Shown here piece after piece: positions 23,405 through 34,850 of a DNA stretch of 41,306 nt. Origin of the DNA: a virus. The stretch spans positions 1 through 41,306 of the IMG/VR virus record IMGVR_UViG_3300044568_003994; one strand, 5' to 3'. The notes below the pieces were generated by a model. It ran no database searches and was not told the DNA's origin. It saw only the letters and a program-made list of their open reading frames with translations. How positions within the stretch are numbered: position 1 is the first letter of the stretch; the number at the start of each line of letters is the position of its first letter. Both the position numbers and the translations under genes were made by a program.

Positions 23405-25453
23405 CTACTTGCTCGTTGCTACAAAGGTACCTTGCCATTCTTTCGGGAAAGATTTATCACTCATATATCCTGCAATTCTTTTACGCATCATCTCATAATA
23501 GTAATCTAATTCACCATTAAAAGATCCCGTTAGATCCATACACATAGTACTGGCATATGCCCATTCTTGTTTACAATAATGCTTAAACATCTTATTATGA
23601 ACAGTTCTAGCATTTGCAAATTCCAATTTAGTATATCTATCTGGTTGTAATACTGTATAGATATCTAATCCAACAGTTTTACCTTTAACAGCAATATTAT
23701 CTAACTTAATAACAAAATAATCATTTTTAACCAGTTTAGCAGTTTCTGGACCAATAATCAACAATACTCCGTAAGATTTAGTCTGTCCTTCTAAACGTGC
23801 TGCAGTACTGACACTATCACCCAATACATCATAACCAAATCTATCTTTGGAACCAATGTTGCCAATTAATGTTTGTCCAGTATTGACACCTGCGCCCATA
23901 CCAATAATTGGTTTACCTTTTGCTACCAGAGATTCATTGAACCCAGTAACTGCTTCAATCATTTCTAAAGCAGTTTTAACAGCATTTTTAGCATGAAATT
24001 CGTCATCCAATGGAGCACCATGAACGTGTAAACTTGCGTCGCCGATAAACTTAATGATACAGCCATCATTTTTTAATACTGGTACTGATATAGCTGTCAT
24101 ATAATCATTCATGATAGAAGTGAGTCCTTCTACATCATCACCATATGATTCACCCAATGTAGTAAATCCACGTAAGTCTGTCATAACAATTGAAAGTTCT
24201 TTTCTCTCACCACCAAGTTTAATCAGTTCAGGGTTCTTTTGTAAACGTTCTACCATAACTGGAGAAACATATGAGCCAAATTGTTTTTTAATTTGTAATT
24301 TTTGATTTAGTTCAGTTAGGAACTTTACCGTAAATGCATGCCCATAAACGCCAACTATGGCAATAACGACAAATGTACTATCAAGTAAAAACCAATAGGT
24401 ATTAAACAAATAACTTACTATTGGGTGAATGCTTCCAATAATTCCCAGTACAATAATGAAACCATATTTCCATCTAATTAGAATGATTGACGATATACAT
24501 AAAAGTATAACAGTTAATGCTTCTGCCATCAAGCTCCATTCTGGTCTTGATATGTTAGTGCCTTTAACAACTGTATCTAAAATTGCTGCTTGAACATAAT
24601 GTGGAAAGACTGATCCAGCAGAAGTTGCAACGGGGTTGTTGAGCCCTTTTGCAGTGAGTCCAACAACGACGATGCTGGAACCAAAGGACTCTGGGAGTTT
24701 AACTGATGAATGTTCACTAAAGGTTGTTGGTTTAAGCCAAATGCGACCGATGTCGTCTGTTTGTATTTTTCCAAATTTTGGTATTCTAACTGCTTGGATT
24801 GATCCATTGAAAACTTTAACTTGGAATGATGGGTCGCCTGATGCAACACGCAAGGTTTCGAGACTGATACTCGGATACAATAATCCTTTGGAAGAGACCA
24901 CCATTGGGATTCGTCTGGTAACGCCATCGATTTCCGGGATGGTATTAACAACACCAATACCAGCAGCACTGTTGTTAAATTCTTCAATATTGGGTTCGAT
25001 ATTTTCATAAGATATTCCTGGATTGCCATCACCGATTACGGATACTCCTGGACGAAACGGCAGAAAAGTTTGTGTTATTGGTTCATCCGTTGCTGTTTGA
25101 GGTAAAACAACTGGGTATTCTGCTAATGTGTTAGCTAATATATCATCCTTACCAAACCTATCATTTTCCGGCATGTATATATTAAATACCACCAACCCAG
25201 CACCGTGTTCATATAACTCTTTAATAAGATTAGCATATTGATCACGTGGAAATGGAAACTGTCCTTTTTGTCGAAGAGTTTCATCATCTATGTTTACAAT
25301 TTGAATATCTGATTTTGTAATATTTTGAGTTAATAAAGTATCAAAATAACGTAACCTTATACTTTCTACAAACGACGGGTCTATAAACCTAATAGAGATT
25401 ACTAGGGATAATGTTAATAATGCTAGCCATGGTGATAATAATATTTTCTTCAT
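23405..25453 (-). CDS. CHASE2-domain class III adenylate cyclase
   Basis: 682 residues: one N-terminal helix (about 8-22), an extracytoplasmic CHASE2 sensor (about 35-300), three helices (308-327, 331-350, 355-375) and a class III cyclase domain (about 415-600). Metal ligands Asp426 (MTDLRGFT) and Asp472 (FIGDAS) are present; Lys468 and Asp542 match the ATP-selecting pair, and Arg553 is kept. The transition-state Asn is Ser549 (GDSVST). It should make cAMP in response to an envelope signal; the Asn to Ser change may lower activity. Downstream of pqqA and rimK in the same direction. Confidence 0.92.
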   Translation of the reverse strand: MKKILLSPWLALLTLSLVISIRFIDPSFVESIRLRYFDTLLTQNITKSDIQIVNIDDETLRQKGQFPFPRDQYANLIKELYEHGAGLVVFNIYMPENDRFGKDDILANTLAEYPVVLPQTATDEPITQTFLPFRPGVSVIGDGNPGISYENIEPNIEEFNNSAAGIGVVNTIPEIDGVTRRIPMVVSSKGLLYPSISLETLRVASGDPSFQVKVFNGSIQAVRIPKFGKIQTDDIGRIWLKPTTFSEHSSVKLPESFGSSIVVVGLTAKGLNNPVATSAGSVFPHYVQAAILDTVVKGTNISRPEWSLMAEALTVILLCISSIILIRWKYGFIIVLGIIGSIHPIVSYLFNTYWFLLDSTFVVIAIVGVYGHAFTVKFLTELNQKLQIKKQFGSYVSPVMVERLQKNPELIKLGGERKELSIVMTDLRGFTTLGESYGDDVEGLTSIMNDYMTAISVPVLKNDGCIIKFIGDASLHVHGAPLDDEFHAKNAVKTALEMIEAVTGFNESLVAKGKPIIGMGAGVNTGQTLIGNIGSKDRFGYDVLGDSVSTAARLEGQTKSYGVLLIIGPETAKLVKNDYFVIKLDNIAVKGKTVGLDIYTVLQPDRYTKLEFANARTVHNKMFKHYCKQEWAYASTMCMDLTGSFNGELDYYYEMMRKRIAGYMSDKSFPKEWQGTFVATSK

Positions 25454-25461
25454 ATGAGTAT

Positions 25462-26334
25462 TTATTTTAGTTTGTCTACTATGAAATCAGCTATTGAATC
25501 AGCTACCTTTACGTGACAGTATTGATCAAAGCCAATAAACCCTGGATTTGAATTAGCCTCGCAAACTCTAAAACCACGAGGATCAAATAATAGGTCAATT
25601 CCGGCAATATCTAGTCCTAGCATGTTGGCAGTTTTCAACGCGATTTCTTCTATTTCTGGGGTGACTGGATATACCTCACCAACCCCGCCTTTTGTTATGT
25701 TTGCTCGAAAATCACCCGATGGGGCGGATCTCTTCATGGCGCCTAACACCTTCCCTCCAACTACAAATACTCGTAAATCTTCGCCTGGTCTGTGGCCGAG
25801 GTATTCTTGCACTATTAATGATTTATCATTTCCTAAATCATCGATAAATTCAATTATACGTTTGTATTCTTTGGCAGATTCACATAAGTATACGCCTTCA
25901 CCAAAACTACCAACCACTACTTTTACCACACAGGGAAACTTTATTATATCAGTTACTAGGGTATTTGTCAATGGAGATTTTACCAACATAGTAGTTGGTA
26001 CGGGGATTCCAGCTGCACTGAGCATTTCTCCAGTTTGAAATTTATCACGTACGATATCTACACTATTACTGCTATTAACACAAGCAATACCAGCTAGTTC
26101 AAAATATCTAATGACTGCTAGTTCGGCTCTAGTTATACCAGCTCCCAATCTTGGAAGTACAATCTTGGGCAATTCAAATGGTTCACCATTGTAATAAATT
26201 TTATCATTAATCACAAGATCTAAAGAATTGAACTGACATACCCGTGCTTTAATATTTCTGTTTTTGAAGCTGTTTAATAAGTTAATTGTTTCGTATTCGT
26301 CTTTTTTTGATTTTGTTAATATTAAAACAGTCAT
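25462..26334 (-). CDS. RimK-like ATP-grasp ligase
   Basis: 290 residues. PRLGAGITRAELAVIRYFE near 65-83, the DKFQTGEML lid region, FPCVVKVVVGSFGEGV (ATP-binding), VQEYLG, DLRVFVVGGKVLGAMKR and the metal-binding end CEANSNPGF. RimK-type enzymes add glutamate to proteins such as ribosomal protein S6 or make gamma-glutamyl peptides. Ribosome binding site aaggaaaac. The substrate in the phage context is unknown; bS21 or PqqA-linked peptides cannot be judged. Confidence 0.9.
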   Translation of the reverse strand: MTVLILTKSKKDEYETINLLNSFKNRNIKARVCQFNSLDLVINDKIYYNGEPFELPKIVLPRLGAGITRAELAVIRYFELAGIACVNSSNSVDIVRDKFQTGEMLSAAGIPVPTTMLVKSPLTNTLVTDIIKFPCVVKVVVGSFGEGVYLCESAKEYKRIIEFIDDLGNDKSLIVQEYLGHRPGEDLRVFVVGGKVLGAMKRSAPSGDFRANITKGGVGEVYPVTPEIEEIALKTANMLGLDIAGIDLLFDPRGFRVCEANSNPGFIGFDQYCHVKVADSIADFIVDKLK

Positions 26335-26350
26335 TGTTTTCCTTTATGAA

Positions 26351-26369
26351 ATGGGTGCCATACACCCAT
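26351..26369 (-). terminator. Stem-loop after pqqA
   Basis: ATGGGTG/CACCCAT, 7-bp perfect stem with 5-nt loop, 7 nt past the pqqA stop. The following T-run is only three bases, so it may attenuate or protect the mRNA end rather than terminate. Confidence 0.5.
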
Positions 26370-26375
26370 CCAAAA

Positions 26376-26450
26376 TTATCTATTGGCTATATAAAGGGTT
26401 ACTTCAAAGCCTAGTCTAATATCATTGTATGTTGGGGTTGACCAAATCAT
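26376..26450 (-). CDS. pqqA: PQQ precursor peptide PqqA
   Basis: A 24-residue gene in the gap between the curlin-like gene and rimK. It reads [20 protein letters not shown] and ends IANR. It matches the PqqA pattern MW.KP...D.R.G.EVT.Y..NR, with the crosslinked pair Glu16 and Tyr20 in exact register (ExxxY). PqqA is the ribosomal substrate that PqqD/PqqE and others convert to pyrroloquinoline quinone, the cofactor of methanol dehydrogenases. Ribosome binding site ggag 7 nt before the ATG; ATAAATAC motif 30 nt upstream. No pqqBCDE in the window, so host enzymes would process it. Confidence 0.93.
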
Positions 26451-26491
26451 AGTATTTCTCCATAAGTTGTTTAGCACTTGTATTTATTTTA

Positions 26492-27619
26492 TTATTGCTG
26501 TTGTACTGAAATCTTAGGACATCCACCAGCGGTGGCACAATTGAACTGAATTGAATATGATTGGGAAGTTGAGCCTGCTTGTGATAGACTTAAATCAGTT
26601 GGTTGACCGGACAATTCAACATTGGCCATATGATTTCCACTACCTTGCTGATTTATATCAACATTTTTATTACCACCTGTTAGTGATACTTCAATGGATT
26701 GATTTCCAGAACCAGATTGACTGGTAATTAATGAATTGTTATTTCCATTTATTGCACCAAATATTTGCTTGGTCCCTCCGGTATTCTGTTGGGATAGGTT
26801 TGCCGTATTATTATTTCCCGATATGGTCAACTCGGTAAAGTTTGTCATATTATTACCCGTTGCTGTTTCATTAATGTTTACGGTATTATTTGACCCATTG
26901 CCGGAATAATTTACATAGTTGTTCTTACTACCAGTTTGATTTACCGTGATGGTGTTGGCATTTCCTATTTGGTTTATATAAACTTGTGTATCGCTTGATG
27001 TTCTATTGACAAAAGTTTGTACTTGGGCGACATTAGCAGGACTCGCGCTAAAACTGGCACTACTTCCACCGCAGCATAAACTTGGTGCTGATGTATATGT
27101 TTGACCAGCTGCTAATGGAGTAGTTGACCAAGTTGCAGCAGCGGCATCAACTTGTTCTACTGTGGGATTTAATGTTCCTGTCCATGATACTCCTGCTGTA
27201 TTACTCATGCCCGTCGTAGTGCTGAATAACTGCCCTGTATTATTATCATATCCAACAAAGAAGAAATATCCAGTGCCCATATTAATAATATGACCAATCC
27301 CCATTATAGCTTTTTGAGTTCCGCTAGCATCGTATTGAATAGCCTTCCAGGGATTTGTAGAATTTTGAACACCATTCACCATGTTAGGAACGAATGATAT
27401 ATAATCACCAGTCGCCCATGATAATCTTCCAGTCGTCCATGGTATTTTATATGCCGTTCCTGGATTTTTGCTATAAATTTGACAAGTTGACGTATACATA
27501 CACGCACTAACATTCCATTGACTGTCCGCAACTTGAAATTTACTATATTTTGTATCAGAAAATGTTGTCGCTTCAGCAACACTAGAAAGTAAAAGTATTA
27601 ACAATAATAACCAATTCAT
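26492..27619 (-). CDS. Curlin-repeat protein with N-terminal extension
   Basis: 375 residues. Signal peptide (MNWLLLLILLLSSVAEA), a ~180-residue N-terminal domain of unknown type, then curlin-like repeats from about 200: TQVYINQIGNANTITVNQTG, NNTVNINETATGNN, NQSIEVSLTGGNKNVDINQQG, each with the Gln/Asn...Gly..Asn spacing of amyloid curlins. Two Cys near the C-terminus. It is probably a secreted amyloid or adhesin exported through CsgG. ATGA overlap with the FecR-domain gene. Confidence 0.85.
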   Translation of the reverse strand: MNWLLLLILLLSSVAEATTFSDTKYSKFQVADSQWNVSACMYTSTCQIYSKNPGTAYKIPWTTGRLSWATGDYISFVPNMVNGVQNSTNPWKAIQYDASGTQKAIMGIGHIINMGTGYFFFVGYDNNTGQLFSTTTGMSNTAGVSWTGTLNPTVEQVDAAAATWSTTPLAAGQTYTSAPSLCCGGSSASFSASPANVAQVQTFVNRTSSDTQVYINQIGNANTITVNQTGSKNNYVNYSGNGSNNTVNINETATGNNMTNFTELTISGNNNTANLSQQNTGGTKQIFGAINGNNNSLITSQSGSGNQSIEVSLTGGNKNVDINQQGSGNHMANVELSGQPTDLSLSQAGSTSQSYSIQFNCATAGGCPKISVQQQ

Positions 27620-28713
27620 GGGGCTTTTATCACTCCTGTATTTTGTTTAATGTTAACAATATTTCCACCTGGGCTACCATCTCCTAGTATAATACTTGCT
27701 GGAGTGTCGTCCTGTATAATAGAAACATATGTATTGGAATTATACCCGCTGGTCTTGACTTCTGTATAATGTTGATTTTCTGTATAGCGGAACGCTATAC
27801 CTTTTCCCTTGCTGGCATCAGTAGATTCGCCTGGTTTATCCCATATAACGCATATACTGGTAGCTGGGTTACATCCATTCAATCCAGCTAGTTCCATCAT
27901 CCGGAGTATCCTAGCATTTTCCATATCTTCCTCTGTTTTAGCAACCATGTTTGCTAATCTCCTTGCCGCCTCTGCTTCCATTTCTTCTTTTTCTTTATCT
28001 TGCGGAGATTTGCTTGATTCCTTTATGGCATTTTGAACTTCTATCGGTTTTACGATAATGAGATTATTAGAAATCTTAGCCTCGACTGTATTTACTATAA
28101 TGGGAGGAGTTGGGCTCATGGTGGCGCTTTGTACATAGGTCGCTTGAAACGCCATATCGAGTGAGACTTTTCCAGACATAGTTTCAACCTCTATTTTACC
28201 AACTTTACACTTATTTTCTTCTAACTCATACTTCTTGACATCTTTGTCATCTTTACAGCTTGGTACAAGCATTATCAAAGATTGTCCGGCCTCATCTACT
28301 GTCATGGAGAAGTCTGTACCACGAACTGCTATAGTTGCCGTTGGTGTTTTAATTCCAACGCGTTGTGGGTTGTTTTTTGCTATTTGCCCAGAGGTATAAC
28401 GGACGGTCCCCATGCCAACCTTCAGTGCTAATTTACCAGCATCTGATTGATTTGGATCAAAGACAAAATCGTCAATTACCAGTCTACTATTTTCAGTTAT
28501 TTTAACTTTAGTGTCGTCCTTGAATGTGATATTACTCACACAGTCTCCAGTGATGTAGGTATCCATACTTTCTATTACTGAGCCTTTCTCACCAGTGACT
28601 TTTTCTTTATTTCTTTCTACGTGACAGGCGGTTCCTTTCGTATCTACCACTGAGCCTATTCCGGCCCAGCTTAATGTAGAAACGAACATGAGAACCAACC
28701 CGTAGTGATACAT
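27616..28713 (-). CDS. FecR-domain secreted protein
   Basis: 365 residues. Signal peptide (to about 17), FecR-type beta domain with GTVRYTSGQ and IKTPTATIAVRGTDFSM (121-137), a charged coiled-coil (about 235-275) and a C-terminal segment with curlin-like spacing (TYVSIIQDD, GGNIVNIKQN). Such proteins accompany secreted-fibre systems. It sits between two curlin-like genes and is probably a fibre partner or anchor. Confidence 0.85.
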   Translation of the reverse strand: MYHYGLVLMFVSTLSWAGIGSVVDTKGTACHVERNKEKVTGEKGSVIESMDTYITGDCVSNITFKDDTKVKITENSRLVIDDFVFDPNQSDAGKLALKVGMGTVRYTSGQIAKNNPQRVGIKTPTATIAVRGTDFSMTVDEAGQSLIMLVPSCKDDKDVKKYELEENKCKVGKIEVETMSGKVSLDMAFQATYVQSATMSPTPPIIVNTVEAKISNNLIIVKPIEVQNAIKESSKSPQDKEKEEMEAEAARRLANMVAKTEEDMENARILRMMELAGLNGCNPATSICVIWDKPGESTDASKGKGIAFRYTENQHYTEVKTSGYNSNTYVSIIQDDTPASIILGDGSPGGNIVNIKQNTGVIKAP

Positions 28714-28719
28714 GAAATG

Positions 28720-29514
28720 CTATCTTACTATTGCGGTTTGTGGATCGACGATACTGGACGAACTTGAACGAACGGTTATTGTGTTATGGTCGCCGGTATT
28801 GGCTATATTGATAGTGGTATCATTTGACCCTTGTTGCTGTGTTGATATTGAGTTATAATCGCCGGTGATGGATTCTTCCAAAACGTGACCAATGGCTCCA
28901 GCCACATCAGTTTGTTCAACGTTGACAACGTTAGTATTACCAGTTATGTCTATGGTGCTAGACCCATTTGTACTAAATAAATTTTGTGTAATTTGGTTGT
29001 CATCACCAGTTACAGAGAGTTGGCTGGTTATATAATTACCAATAACAGTTTCGAGTGATAAATTACCATTTCCCACAAAGGATTCAGAAAATGAATTATG
29101 GTGATTATTTGTAAAAGTTGCATCTCCTACTACTAACTCAGTTGTATTATCGTCGCCGGTGACTGTGCTGAAATATGAGTTATTATTACCTTTTATATTA
29201 TATTGGGCCCAGTTATTATCACCGTGTTGAGTTATAACTAAACTATCGGAACTTCCCGTTACAGTTGCATAATTAAGTTCGCTTGCAGCTCCTGGGGTGT
29301 GTGTGGTAACGCCATCTGTACCAACGGTTGTTGACCCATTAATTCCCGCTACTGTATTTGTTCCGCCTACTTGTTCTATTGTTATTACATTGGTATTCCC
29401 TAATTGTTCAATATATACTTTATTGGGACCTGTTGCTGTTCCAACTGCTCCACTTATATTTGAAAAAAGTGCCACTAATGATACAACTAGAAATTTCGAT
29501 ATTATTCTTTTCAT
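28720..29514 (-). CDS. Curlin-repeat (CsgA/B-like) protein
   Basis: 264 residues. Signal peptide (MKRIISKFLVVSLVALFSNISG) and repeats with curlin spacing: KVYIEQLGNTNVITIEQVG, DSLVITQHGDNNWAQ, STIDITGNTNVVNVEQT, NSISTQQQGSNDTTI. Rich in Asn, Gln, Gly, Thr and without Cys. Probably the main or nucleating amyloid subunit. Lies directly after csgG. Confidence 0.88.
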   Translation of the reverse strand: MKRIISKFLVVSLVALFSNISGAVGTATGPNKVYIEQLGNTNVITIEQVGGTNTVAGINGSTTVGTDGVTTHTPGAASELNYATVTGSSDSLVITQHGDNNWAQYNIKGNNNSYFSTVTGDDNTTELVVGDATFTNNHHNSFSESFVGNGNLSLETVIGNYITSQLSVTGDDNQITQNLFSTNGSSTIDITGNTNVVNVEQTDVAGAIGHVLEESITGDYNSISTQQQGSNDTTINIANTGDHNTITVRSSSSSIVDPQTAIVR

Positions 29515-29559
29515 TGTACTTACATTATCTGAGTTTCCTCATATACGCTCCGTTTAATT

Positions 29560-30363
29560 TTATTCTTTGAAAGACCAATGACCTTTTCGAACACCCTCTT
29601 TTATAGTTTCTAATACAGCTGCCTGTATTGCTTTGTTAGTTGCTCGATTTATACTTTCATTGATACTTCCACCAAGTTCCGCTTCAATGGCTGTTGTGCC
29701 AGAATCCACGAATTTCAATACACTAAGTTTATCTACATAACTCAGTACAGTCTTTGTAATAGTAACACTGGTTAAAACTTCGCCAGTAGTTACCGACACT
29801 GTTCTTAAACTAATAGTCACTGTATCACTTTGGTATTGTGTCTCCCCTCCTATCCCAAATATTCTTACACCTGCTCCTCCAGTAATAGTATTTGAGTCGT
29901 ACCCGACGATTGCGCCTTCTGCTAAAATACCAGCAAAAGTTAATGCTGGCAATTGCACCGCTGCCTGACCTTGAAATTGTTCCCTAGCCTGACGGATCAT
30001 CTGTCTTTCTTTTATTAAATCTTCTAATCCAACCCGTTCTAATACTACGAACCACCTTGAACCACCTACGTCCTGAAGTGCTTTTATTAAATATGTTTCC
30101 GCTCCTTGTGTAACAGCCGAGCTTAAACTTGCTATGTTGGCTAACGATTTTCTTTGACCCGTTTTATCAGAAAATCCATACACTCCAATTGGAATTAATC
30201 CATTGGCCGGAGCAGCAATTATATTCTCATCCTTGATGAGATATTTACTTGCTTCAACGACTGGGTCATCAAATTGCTCGCCAGTGATCAAATTACGTAA
30301 AGCACTACCTGCCGCACATCCCTGAAGTAATAATATTATTGATAACAATATGATATTTTTCAT
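29560..30363 (-). CDS. csgG: Curli export channel CsgG
   Basis: 267 residues, full CsgG length. Lipobox LLQGC (Cys16), then IPIGVYGFSDKTGQRK, the ERVGLEDLIKERQMIR segment, ALTFAGILAEGAIVGYDSNT and GGETQYQSDTVTISLRTVSVTTGEV, matching CsgG block by block. CsgG forms a nonameric outer-membrane pore for unfolded curlins. Located 2 nt after csgF. CsgE is not visible. Confidence 0.95.
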   Translation of the reverse strand: MKNIILLSIILLLQGCAAGSALRNLITGEQFDDPVVEASKYLIKDENIIAAPANGLIPIGVYGFSDKTGQRKSLANIASLSSAVTQGAETYLIKALQDVGGSRWFVVLERVGLEDLIKERQMIRQAREQFQGQAAVQLPALTFAGILAEGAIVGYDSNTITGGAGVRIFGIGGETQYQSDTVTISLRTVSVTTGEVLTSVTITKTVLSYVDKLSVLKFVDSGTTAIEAELGGSINESINRATNKAIQAAVLETIKEGVRKGHWSFKE

Positions 30364-30365
30364 AA

Positions 30366-30848
30366 TTAGAAATAAAAAGTTCCTGATGGTACTTTTATTA
30401 TTGTTGTTTGGCTTGGGTTACTGTTATTGGTTATGTGTAGGATGATCATCCCAGAATCTGAACCATCGCCTAGTGACCAAGAAACCGTGTTGCCACCCAA
30501 ATCAGGTATGGTTCCACACACTGCTCCGGGTGTAGTACATGGGGCTGCTCCTTCCCCAAACATACTGTTTGTTAATTGTTGAGCGAGTTGTGAATAAATT
30601 CTTGATTCTAAGTTGGCTAGGAATTTTGCCTGTGGGGTATTTTCAGCTGCTGCTTTCTGCTCTGCCTTTTGAGCATCTTCTGCCGCTTTCTTTTTCTCAG
30701 CTGCTTGGGTCTCTAATTGGTTTATTGTTAGCACATGTTGGCTATAGCCAGAACCATTAAATGATGGGCTATTAAATTGGTACGATAATTCAGCAGAATA
30801 TATGTTTGTACTTAACAGTAGTATAATTATACCTAGTAGTTTATTCAT
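30366..30848 (-). CDS. csgF: Curli assembly factor CsgF
   Basis: 160 residues from the ATG at 30848, chosen because ggggag lies 9 nt upstream; an in-frame upstream ATG adds 12 residues with no site. Signal peptide ending IYSA, then ELSYQFNSPSFNGSGY (compare ELVYQPVNPSFGG), an Ala/Lys-rich coiled coil, FLANLESRIYSQLAQQLTNSMFG, and a C-terminal beta domain. CsgF couples nucleation to the CsgG pore. Confidence 0.9.
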   Translation of the reverse strand: MNKLLGIIILLLSTNIYSAELSYQFNSPSFNGSGYSQHVLTINQLETQAAEKKKAAEDAQKAEQKAAAENTPQAKFLANLESRIYSQLAQQLTNSMFGEGAAPCTTPGAVCGTIPDLGGNTVSWSLGDGSDSGMIILHITNNSNPSQTTIIKVPSGTFYF

Positions 30849-30899
30849 AGTGGTTGCTCCCCTTATATATTTACAGGGAAACAACCGTTAATAATACTG

Positions 30900-31589
30900 C
30901 TAGTTAATTAGTGGTATTTCTGGAAACATAAATTCATTAACGAATATATCTATATTATCAATATCCATTCCCAAATTAAGCATCACATTTACATTATGTG
31001 GATTTTGTTTTTGATTTTGCGCATAATAATTTTGATTAAAGGTAGTATCGACTGCAGTATTATTTGTATCAGCTACTGTGTTTAAGTATTGTTCAATAGT
31101 CTTGGATACAATATCAACAATCTGTATAACTTCTTCTTGCTTTTGAACATTACTGGCAGCAATCATCGATGTAGTAAAAATACGTTCAGCCCATTCTGGT
31201 AATTTACGTTGTTTGCTCCAGGACAACTCACTAACTTCGTGGGCGAACCACTCAATTAATGGATGGTTATCATCGCCTGCTGGACTAAAATCATGAAAAC
31301 ATCCAGTGATTTTATTTTTTCCGGCTATGACATCCAATCCAAAAATAGGTGCTGGGTTATGGGTATGCGGAAATATACAACAGTGCATCATCCATAATCC
31401 TTTTGTTGTTCTAGCATCAACAACATACATGTGCGCACGTCTATATTGATCACTAGTCCATCCTTTATTAGTCCAACCTGGTTTTGTTATTCGATCAAAC
31501 CCATGATCTGGAACTGGTATTCCACTACTATTAAATTTTTCTTCTAAGAATGATTGAATTTTAATTAATTCATTCCAAATATTACTCAT
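30900..31589 (-). CDS. Ferredoxin-dependent bilin reductase (PcyA/PebS/PcyX type)
   Basis: 229 residues. The core YRRAHMYVVDARTTKGLWMM, HCCIFPHTHNPAPIFGLDVIAG and GCFHDFSPAG is typical of the family; His69 and Asp86 match PcyA His88 and Asp105. It reduces biliverdin to a phycobilin with electrons from ferredoxin. The start ATGAGTAA overlaps the heme oxygenase stop by 8 nt. From memory the sequence is closer to PcyX-like proteins of non-cyanobacterial phages than to PcyA; the product (phycoerythrobilin or phycocyanobilin) cannot be decided here. Confidence 0.88.
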   Translation of the reverse strand: MSNIWNELIKIQSFLEEKFNSSGIPVPDHGFDRITKPGWTNKGWTSDQYRRAHMYVVDARTTKGLWMMHCCIFPHTHNPAPIFGLDVIAGKNKITGCFHDFSPAGDDNHPLIEWFAHEVSELSWSKQRKLPEWAERIFTTSMIAASNVQKQEEVIQIVDIVSKTIEQYLNTVADTNNTAVDTTFNQNYYAQNQKQNPHNVNVMLNLGMDIDNIDIFVNEFMFPEIPLIN

Positions 31590-32121
31590 TACTAAGTTCG
31601 CGCATTATCTTAATAGCCCACGAAAAAGCTACTCTTGCCTCGTCGCCGAGGTCATCAGTTAACATATTTCTAATCGCAGCACGCAACTCTTCGACATTGT
31701 CAAATTCATAAAACTTGCCACTACCTGGAATTTTCTTTGCGATATATTGACCACCAAACAGATCACCCATATGACGAACATACAAATGTGCTTTTAGTAA
31801 ATGACATCTCTCAGGATCATTTATCAACTCAATTACATATTGGTTATATGCTAAGGTAGCTGGTAACCAAACATAGTGATGATTTTTATCAGCTAATTCT
31901 TGAAAATCTTGTGCTATTTTATGAAGTCTTTCTACTCCTTGGAGAGTTTCAAATATTCCTTGAATTTTACAACCAAATTCAACTGGTCCATATACTGCAA
32001 TCATTTGATATAAGTAATCAGTATACTTCTCTTTTGAAATATTTCCAGATAACAGTAGTTTTGCAAATTCTGTTTTTTCTGCTTCTGTGTGTAAATCTTT
32101 TGTAATTTCTTTTAAACTCAT
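31582..32121 (-). CDS. Heme oxygenase
   Basis: 179 residues, slightly shorter than HO-1. Proximal His11 (LHTEAEKTEF), the distal helix YVRHMGDLFGGQYIAKK (114-130), and a typical all-helical layout. It opens heme to biliverdin, CO and iron. Directly coupled to the bilin reductase gene, forming a two-step heme to bilin pathway. Gammaproteobacterial methanotrophs are not known bilin producers, so the chromophore user is unclear. Confidence 0.93.
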   Translation of the reverse strand: MSLKEITKDLHTEAEKTEFAKLLLSGNISKEKYTDYLYQMIAVYGPVEFGCKIQGIFETLQGVERLHKIAQDFQELADKNHHYVWLPATLAYNQYVIELINDPERCHLLKAHLYVRHMGDLFGGQYIAKKIPGSGKFYEFDNVEELRAAIRNMLTDDLGDEARVAFSWAIKIMRELSNE

Positions 32122-32136
32122 ATATTCCTCTGTATA

Positions 32137-32439
32137 TTATTCGTCTGTTTCTATCTTAATCTGTAATGGAAATCCATTTTCCCGTGCCAGTTTAGTAGCA
32201 TCTACCGCTTTTACTTCAGCAATCTCAAAATCATATACGCCGGCAATACCTGACCCTGATTCATGAACTTGGTTGGTTATGTGTGATGCGCTATCAAGCT
32301 CGTGTCTAAAAATTTCTATCAACATGGATATTACGAAGTCCATTGGTGTGTGGTCATCATTAATAATAATAACTTTCCAGCGTTTTGGATTTTCTACTCT
32401 GATTTTGGTTTTTTCAATTGGGGCAATTTCTGTAGACAT
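32137..32439 (-). CDS. clpS: ClpS adaptor protein
   Basis: 100 residues. Core RWKVIIINDDHTPMDFV (21-37) with the N-degron-binding Asn/Asp, then VHESGSGIAGVYDFEIAEVKA, and a basic-acidic end. ClpS brings N-end-rule substrates to ClpA(P). With ClpP in the same window the phage may redirect host proteolysis. Confidence 0.95.
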   Translation of the reverse strand: MSTEIAPIEKTKIRVENPKRWKVIIINDDHTPMDFVISMLIEIFRHELDSASHITNQVHESGSGIAGVYDFEIAEVKAVDATKLARENGFPLQIKIETDE

Positions 32440-32464
32440 GTTTTATTCCTATTAAGTTATGATA

Positions 32465-32893
32465 TTATTTAATTGTTATGTTATGTGGTTTACGCCATTC
32501 TGGAATAATCCGCAAGAAGGTGATTTTTAATAATCCATCATTTATAACCGCCTCATCAACTGTAAGGTATTCGGTTAACGCAAATGCCTGTTCGAAGTTC
32601 CGAGCCGCTAGTCCACGATGTAAATATTCAACTTCACTATTGTCTATATTAACATGATTGCCTATAACAATCAATTGATTTTCTTTAATCTGTACAGAAA
32701 TTTCATCTTTTGAAAAGCCAGCAATTGCAATCTCTATAGCATAATGGGTATCATCGTATTTAATGATATTATATGGTGGATAATTAGTATGTTGGACAGA
32801 TGCCAATCTTGAGTTAACTATTAAATCAAAACCTATTAGGGCTCTATTTAAATTTGTCAACACTTGGGCGTCTATTGTTTTTAACGGTGTCAT
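32465..32893 (-). CDS. Small heat shock protein (IbpA-like Hsp20)
   Basis: 142 residues; alpha-crystallin domain from about 38 with YPPYNIIKYDDTHYAIEIAIAGF, ENQLIVIGNH, YLHRGLAARNFEQAFAL and a C-terminal tail RIIPEWRKPHNITIK. Binds unfolding proteins and hands them to DnaK, encoded upstream. Ribosome binding site aaggagaagcac. Confidence 0.95.
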   Translation of the reverse strand: MTPLKTIDAQVLTNLNRALIGFDLIVNSRLASVQHTNYPPYNIIKYDDTHYAIEIAIAGFSKDEISVQIKENQLIVIGNHVNIDNSEVEYLHRGLAARNFEQAFALTEYLTVDEAVINDGLLKITFLRIIPEWRKPHNITIK

Positions 32894-32916
32894 GTGCTTC
32901 TCCTTTATTAAGCAAG

Positions 32917-32952
32917 AACTCCTATGAGACCCAATGGCATCTCACAGGAGTT
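32917..32952 (-). promoter_or_regulatory. 13-bp hairpin between dnaK and hsp20
   Basis: On minus-strand RNA, 13 bp pair continuously; the one mismatch on the plus strand becomes a G-U pair on the minus strand. It lies 24 nt upstream of the hsp20 start and may serve as processing site, attenuator or stability element. Confidence 0.55.
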
Positions 32953-32972
32953 ATTATACTATCTATATATTA

Positions 32973-34850
32973 TCAAACTTCTGTAAATTCTCCATCTACA
33001 GTTTGATCATTATTATCAGCTTGAACTGGTTGTTCGGCTTCTTGTTTTTTAGATACCAATGGCGCTGATGTCTCGAATAATTTTTGAACTAGTTCATTAA
33101 TTTTTTCGGCATCGTCCCCATTAGTAGCTTCTTTAAGATCCGTTAATGCTGATTCAATAGCTGATTTATCTTCATCAGTTAACTGATCTTTCAACTCATC
33201 AAAATCTTTTTGAATACTATTCATTTGTGATTCAGCACCATTGCGTGCTTCAATCAATGTCTTAGCCTTCATATCAGATTCTGCGTTTTCTTCAGCATCA
33301 CGTATCATTCGTTTAATTTCTTCTTCACTGACACCAGAATCAGATTTGATAGTAATATTGTTTTTCTTACCAGTTGCCTTATCTGTTGCTGAAATATGCA
33401 TAATTCCATTAGCATCAATGTCAAATGTTACTTCAACCTGTGGTACTCCACGTGGTGCTGGTGCAATTCCTTCTAGATTGAATTCGCCTAGTTGTTTATT
33501 ATATTGATATAATTCACGTTCGCCTTGTCCAACTTTAATAGTTACCGCTGGTTGGTTGTCTTCTGCTGTTGAAAAAGATTGGCTTGCTTTAGTTGGGATT
33601 GTAGTATTTTTTTGAATAATCTTAGTGAATACTCCACCCATTGTTTCAATGCCTAAACTCAATGGTGTTACATCAAGTAATAATACATCTGTTTTATCAC
33701 CAGAAAGTACCGCGCCTTGAATTGCCGCACCTGCCGCAACAGCTTCGTCTGGGTTAACATCTTTACGTGGTGCTTTACCGAACAATTTTTCAACTGCTTC
33801 TTGAACTTTAGGCATGCGTGATTGACCACCAACTAAAATGATATCATCGATATCACTGATTTTTACTTTGGCGTCCTTCATAGCAATTTTACAAGGTTCA
33901 ATACTTCGTTGAATCAAATCTTCCACTAATGATTCAAACTTAGATCTCGAAATGGTAATATTAAGATGTTTGGGGCCATTAGCATCGGCTGAAATATATG
34001 GTAGATTAATAGTTGTTTGTGTGGTACTTGATAATTCAACTTTGGCTTTTTCTGCTGCTTCTTTCAAACGTTGAAGTGCCATCATATCACTTTTTAGATC
34101 AAATCCAGAATCCTTTTTAAATTCATCAATGATATAATCCATTAATCGTTGATCAAAATCTTCACCGCCCAAGAATGTATCACCATTGGTAGATAGTACT
34201 TCGATTTGTTTTTCGCCATCGATACTTGCGATTTCAATAATGGAAATATCAAAAGTTCCACCACCCAAATCATAGACTGCTACTTTGCTATCTTTGCTAT
34301 CCGCTTTATCAACACCGTATGCCAATGCTGCTGCGGTTGGTTCATTTATGATACGTAATACTTCCAATCCAGCAATACGACCAGCATCTTTTGTTGCTTG
34401 ACGTTGTGAATCATTGAAATATGCAGGTACGGTAATTACTGCTTGCGTCACTGCTTCGCCCAGATAATCCTCAGCGGTTGTTTTCATTTTTCGTAATACT
34501 TCTGCTGAAATTTGCGGTGGGGCTAATTTCTCACCATTTGCTTCAACCCACGCATCACCATTTTCTGCTTTGATGATTGAATATGGCATAAGATCGATAT
34601 CTTTCTGAACAGCATCTTCGTCAAAAGACCGACCGATTAATCGTTTAACCGCATATAGGGTATTTTTTGGATTTGTAACAGATTGTCTTTTTGCTGCCGC
34701 ACCGACTAATATTTCATTGTCGGTATATGCGATGATTGACGGAGTAGTACGAGTACCTTCCGCATTTTCTATAATTTTAGCAGATCCATTTTCCAGGATT
34801 GCCACACATGAATTGGTTGTACCTAAGTCGATACCTATAATTTTGCTCAT
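32973..34850 (-). CDS. dnaK: Molecular chaperone DnaK (Hsp70)
   Basis: 625 residues, near full length (E. coli 638). ATPase motifs [46 protein letters not shown]; interdomain linker [19 protein letters not shown]; substrate domain and a tail ending [14 protein letters not shown] close to bacterial DnaK. ATP-driven folding of nascent or virion proteins. Neither DnaJ nor GrpE is visible, so host cochaperones are needed. Host-derived acquisition is likely from the near-canonical sequence. Confidence 0.98.

Follow-up and report, generated by a model that had tools for sequence, protein, structure and literature searches.

The IMG/VR virus record IMGVR_UViG_3300044568_003994 provided a stretch of 41,306 nucleotides (the whole of which is hereafter called the window), whose minus strand carries a stand-alone pqqA gene coding for the 24-residue precursor peptide of pyrroloquinoline quinone (PQQ), the cofactor of methanol dehydrogenase. 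As a whole, the analysis makes it probable that a phage of methanotrophs carries this gene as an auxiliary metabolic gene feeding the PQQ synthesis of its host.

The peptide is a PqqA: it scored 43.8 bits (E 1.5e-11; cut-off 20) against the NCBIfam profile TIGR02107 and 34.9 bits (cut-off 21.1) against Pfam PF08042, both above the curated cut-offs, as a preliminary description made from the letters alone had anticipated when it proposed a comparison with PqqA profiles. The coordinates given there (26376-26450) were right and lacked the strand, which is the minus one, the plus strand of this interval having no open frame. A six-frame scan returned this pqqA as the sole PqqA match of the whole record (E 5.7e-9), and no PHROG family was matched by the peptide. 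The peptide shares with Methylococcaceae-type PqqA (MKWETPSYTDLRFGFEVTMYIYNR) its length of 24 residues and residues W3, P6, D10, R12, G14, F15, E16, V17, T18, Y20, N23 and R24, including the N-terminal W/P/D/R/G positions and the NR end that had been singled out beforehand. Glu16 and Tyr20, read in the translation in the Glu-x-x-x-Tyr spacing expected near the C-terminus, are the residues joined by PqqE, and leader roles have also been described (PMC10906245). The two genes are also alike in being short, with a ribosome-binding site and a downstream hairpin. The site reported in front of the window gene is indeed present, and nearly all aligned phage copies of pqqA are preceded by GGAG or a close variant.

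The window is a fragment of a T4-like phage, as seen from its RNA ligase/tail-fibre attachment and tail-fibre PHROGs and its seven tRNAs; close DNA relatives were not found in the phage collection. The pmoC gene mentioned in the preliminary description is real, yet truncated by the contig end, its 83-residue product being 87-88% identical to Methylobacter/Methylococcaceae PmoC. Its stand-alone status, by which pmoC-phages are defined, was judged from this truncated fragment only, and PF02461 (pmoA) gave no match, a weak test since the same search matched in no control genome either. A host contig or a chimeric assembly classed as viral might be suspected, the window being an incomplete 41-kb metagenome record. 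Such an artefact is hardly conceivable, however, in view of the phage RNA ligase and tail genes and the tRNAs, the same arrangement in independent contigs of up to 188 kb, the lack of a pqqB adjoining the window pqqA, and the occurrence of pqqA in phages deposited as complete genomes.

Conservation of the locus and selection on pqqA

In the window, pqqA lies between a curlin-repeat gene and a gene for a RimK-type ligase. A search with the RimK protein as query, followed by one with an alignment of six, yielded 63 phage loci. The order curlin gene, pqqA, RimK was also found in L111, L203 (same record as L034), L204, L255 and L256, of which the last three are identical in pqqA. The distance from flank to flank is 155-158 nt where pqqA is present, while an empty site of 32-44 nt is seen in about 15 close relatives, the pmoC-bearing record of L110 among them; the curlin-RimK interval is a clean presence/absence site for pqqA. 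The Glu-Tyr pair is kept in all five copies and the 188-kb record of L034/L203, which has a complete pmoC, holds pqqA at this very site, so that two checks suggested beforehand for this locus both came out in favour of the gene.

When compared with the copies of L204, G049, G021 and G055, the window pqqA shows 18-23 nucleotide differences and 3-6 residue changes, whereas none of 20,000 random mutation sets combined an open frame with so few residue changes. Nei-Gojobori estimates were 0.16-0.21 for dN and, where computable, 1.35-1.78 for dS, giving a dN/dS of about 0.1. The gene is under purifying selection, its substitutions being mostly silent. Because the same peptide occurs at the same site in related phages, with few residue changes compared with the random sets, the match is not a chance one. 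Further features looked for in an auxiliary metabolic gene were found as well: viral gene surroundings in synteny with contigs of up to 188 kb and a host homologue in 29 of 30 Methylococcales genomes.

The patchy presence of pqqA at this site could point to a neutral passenger, or to a functionless gene acquired recently and by accident from the host. This reading is contradicted by the selection signal, as well as by phage-specific sequences, many separate genomic sites and the gene's own ribosome-binding site in each case, and is quite improbable. That pqqA and RimK are adjacent and co-oriented, both in the window and in five further contigs, could also be taken as the mark of a new system of ribosomally synthesised and post-translationally modified peptides, in which RimK would add amino acids to the peptide. 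However, about 50 phage RimK relatives have no pqqA beside them and RimK is not the neighbour of most phage pqqA genes, which makes this a very remote prospect; a link between the two genes was rejected since most RimK relatives lack an adjoining pqqA.

Stand-alone pqqA and its coupling to pmoC across viral records

Two degenerate patterns matched 106 and at least 119 stretches, counts that are lower bounds, and nearly all of the matches were short PqqA frames (those of L077 and L098 were rejected as chance). More than 200 IMG/VR contigs carry a stand-alone pqqA. A pqqB gene lies beside pqqA at only one of 227 viral loci, which include a few duplicates or chance matches, vs. 29 of the 30 host loci. 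Sequences of the group MWKKPAFIDMRLGLEVTLYISNR, often near contig ends, may be cellular or at a prophage edge and were not used as evidence.

Among 50,697 phage records searched with four PqqA queries, matches were obtained in the Methylophilales phages P19250A, Venkman, four Melnitz phages, MEP301, MEP401 and MEP402, besides a podovirus of unstated host, one chance microvirus match and one bacterial contaminant. The bona fide matches with a stated host come only from phages of methylotrophs; those in "Acinetobacter phage MD-2021a" were discarded, a bacterial pqqABCDE operon being present in that record. Six phage PqqA peptides scored 34-41 bits against TIGR02107. Like the window, each of these isolated methylophages has a stand-alone PqqA, although with Methylophilales hosts and a TEMRFGFEVTMYVMNK-type peptide. 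In their records, the gene is either unannotated or overlapped by a hypothetical protein and is never labelled pqqA; in a Melnitz phage (L381, 2501-2572), the opposite strand of this stretch bears the annotation of a hypothetical protein. That such a gene, below the cut-offs of gene callers, is easily missed had been foreseen.

A scan for pmoC gave 117 viral contigs. pqqA was found in 6 of 46 pmoC viral records searched and, among those above 120 kb, in 4 of 10 (188, 172, 259 and 372 kb). Thirteen pmoC viral records, window excluded, carry pqqA, in line with the earlier expectation that other pmoC-bearing phages would have it. In the pattern scan, pmoC stands directly before pqqA, on the same strand, in the freshwater contigs L392, L438 and L467 (L199) and in the marine T4-like contigs L415, L425, L453, L459 and L494. 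The PmoC of L425, L392 and L438 scored 409-418 bits against AmoC, and a T4-type major head protein, a helicase, a recombination nuclease and a tail tube are encoded in L425 as well. Since some of the records are near-identical (G054 and G055, and the five marine contigs), they do not all represent independent events. Identity between the marine and the freshwater PmoC is 47% and, judging from these sequences, the same pair is carried by two distant phage groups. Its position directly downstream of pmoC in both freshwater and marine T4-like phages ties pqqA to one-carbon (C1) oxidation. It is likely, with less assurance than for the role of the gene in the window, that pmoC and pqqA form a recurrent phage module for C1 oxidation, assembled more than once (in freshwater methanotroph phages and in marine T4-like phages whose pmoC is distant), and that stand-alone pqqA is a common, almost unannotated gene of methylotroph phages, overlooked because it is only 24 codons long.

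Two observations concern these contigs. A strong GC-rich hairpin, with TATAAT just before it, lies between pmoC and pqqA in L438 (4230-4320) and L392 (2640-2740), and may terminate the pmoC mRNA or form a cap at the 5' end of the pqqA mRNA. Also, L199 (ca. 1495-1620) has a PqqA with an extended C-terminus (CYIAINPFNIRGENKLSSFSYYIL), the same peptide ending after CYIAIN in L392.

The pmoC-phages (Chen et al. 2020, PMC7674155) share with the window a methanotroph-like pmoC, HSP20 and cyanophage-like T4 relatives; their pmoC stands alone, as that of the window may do. Here, by contrast, one genome carries pqqA together with pmoC, and in other contigs the two genes are immediate neighbours, while neither PQQ nor pqqA is mentioned in the main text of that paper. 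A viral PqqA with the same proposed role was reported for the Baikal methylophage population VP_266 (PMC7678222), which differs in carrying methanol dehydrogenase and in its link to Methylophilaceae, with no reported coupling to pmoC, and pqqA is listed among viral genes of the phosphorus cycle (PMC13188868). No further report of viral pqqA was found in a literature search whose scope excluded subscription papers, supplements and preprints. Viral pqqA itself has thus already been reported, whereas its coupling to pmoC and its breadth appear to be new.

Proposed supply of a precursor peptide to host enzymes

Among 38 pqqA records searched for PqqE and PQQ alcohol dehydrogenase, none gave either, the only matches to PqqE being weak radical-SAM ones below the cut-off. 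Of note, two pqqA contigs (G026 and G042, records of L041 and L087) have three or four such weakly PqqE-like radical-SAM proteins. No pqqB was found beside the window pqqA, nor is the gene followed by pqqBCDE as in Methylococcaceae; this adjacency is usual for pqqA but not required, stand-alone copies being known. The Methylococcales genomes mentioned above encode a near-invariant 24-mer and do carry pqqB beside their own pqqA; the biosynthetic enzymes therefore come from the host. As for the earlier proposal that the phage supplies parts for two consecutive steps, one subunit of the particulate methane monooxygenase (pMMO) and a PQQ precursor peptide were found, but not the enzymes of the two steps.

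The carrier would be a lytic, T4-like phage infecting Methylobacter and related gammaproteobacterial methanotrophs, in which the 24-mer would be produced in quantity late in infection, a timing suggested by an upstream ATAAATA motif. Host PqqD and PqqE would take up the phage peptide and cross-link Glu16 to Tyr20, and host PqqB and PqqC would complete PQQ. As PqqA is a consumed substrate, with one peptide used per PQQ, supply of the peptide would suffice and could by itself allow the host enzymes to go on making PQQ once transcription in the host declines. Methanol dehydrogenase would then stay charged with PQQ, methane monooxygenase would be supported by phage PmoC, and the route from methane to methanol and formaldehyde would be propped up for energy and carbon. 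In line with such a supply, three of the five pqqA genes of a methylotroph are stand-alone, and a cell-free extract converted added PqqA to PQQ at 70-80% (PMC9851590).

Several points weigh against this proposal: pmoC and pqqA are 26 kb apart in the window; pqqA is absent from many pmoC viral records, which are mostly fragments; the hairpin behind the window gene has no U-run, which makes it only a candidate terminator; and the window peptide is identical to the near-invariant host peptide at 16 of 24 residues and differs at the other eight, so that its fit to host PqqD/PqqE is putative. Those eight differences would also suit a decoy or brake, that is, a peptide occupying PqqD/PqqE and lowering or redirecting host PQQ synthesis, and phages do use small inhibitory peptides. 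However, in the copies detected by profile or by synteny, the cross-linked Glu and Tyr are retained along with the leader W, P, D and R residues, and the placement with pmoC argues for boosted C1 oxidation; a decoy is unlikely.

A phage pmoC has been puzzling, as it is difficult to see how a single pMMO subunit would boost metabolism. As the same genomes also encode the precursor of the cofactor that the following enzyme needs, at times in the gene immediately after pmoC, a boost of both methane and methanol oxidation would be the simplest reading. Such a pqqA would be an unusual auxiliary gene, providing a consumed peptide substrate and not an enzyme. Because the gene is below gene-caller cut-offs and the window peptide has no PHROG family, its influence on how infected cells turn over methane and methanol has so far gone uncounted; the cultured carriers Venkman, Melnitz, P19250A and MEP301 put the question within experimental reach.

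Flanks of pqqA and other genes of the window

The features on which the analysis is based are given in Table 1. The (N)ATAAATA motif has the form of T4-type late promoters. It immediately follows the curlin gene in L111, L203 and L204, which have pqqA, and in L109, L110, L112 and L202, which do not, and 7 of the 10 minus-strand ATAAATA copies sit 12-84 nt before gene starts. As the motif follows the curlin stop with or without pqqA, the gene appears to have entered just behind a putative late promoter. A hairpin is also found 3' of pqqA in G055, G021 and G074 and in the host gene.

Table 1. Position and basis of the features around pqqA and of pmoC in the window
Feature	Position	Strand	Basis or remark
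pmoC, N-terminal part, cut by contig end	3..251	-	AmoC PF04896, 98 bits
RimK-family ATP-grasp ligase, downstream of pqqA	25462..26334	-	TIGR00768, 225 bits; flank defining the site; in relatives mostly found without pqqA
Hairpin directly after pqqA, before rimK	26349..26371	-	-12.5 kcal/mol, z -2.5
pqqA, 24-residue PQQ precursor peptide	26376..26450	-	ATG at 26450, TAA stop at 26376; TIGR02107/PF08042 profiles, synteny, purifying selection
GGAG ribosome-binding site	26458..26461	-	7 nt before the pqqA ATG; read from sequence
ATAAATA, candidate T4-type late promoter (NATAAATA)	26481..26487	-	37 nt upstream of pqqA
Curlin-repeat protein, upstream of pqqA	26492..27619	-	Weak PF07012 repeats; block with CsgG, CsgF and FecR

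The curlin gene belongs to a curli-type block (26492-30884, minus strand) with CsgF, CsgG, FecR and two curlin-repeat proteins, in an order shared by several related phage contigs; for Methyloglobulus phages, the presence of curli genes has been mentioned (PMC7678222). On the other side, a protein with CHASE2 and adenylate/guanylate cyclase domains (23405-25453, minus strand) is also found downstream of RimK in relatives, and in L034 its gene is split by an insert resembling a homing-endonuclease gene. Elsewhere in the window are ClpP (2269-2856) and, on the minus strand, a ClpS adaptor, an IbpA-like Hsp20 and DnaK side by side (32137-34850). A ferredoxin-dependent bilin reductase and a heme oxygenase (30900-32121, minus strand) are encoded as well, in a phage of non-photosynthetic methanotrophs.
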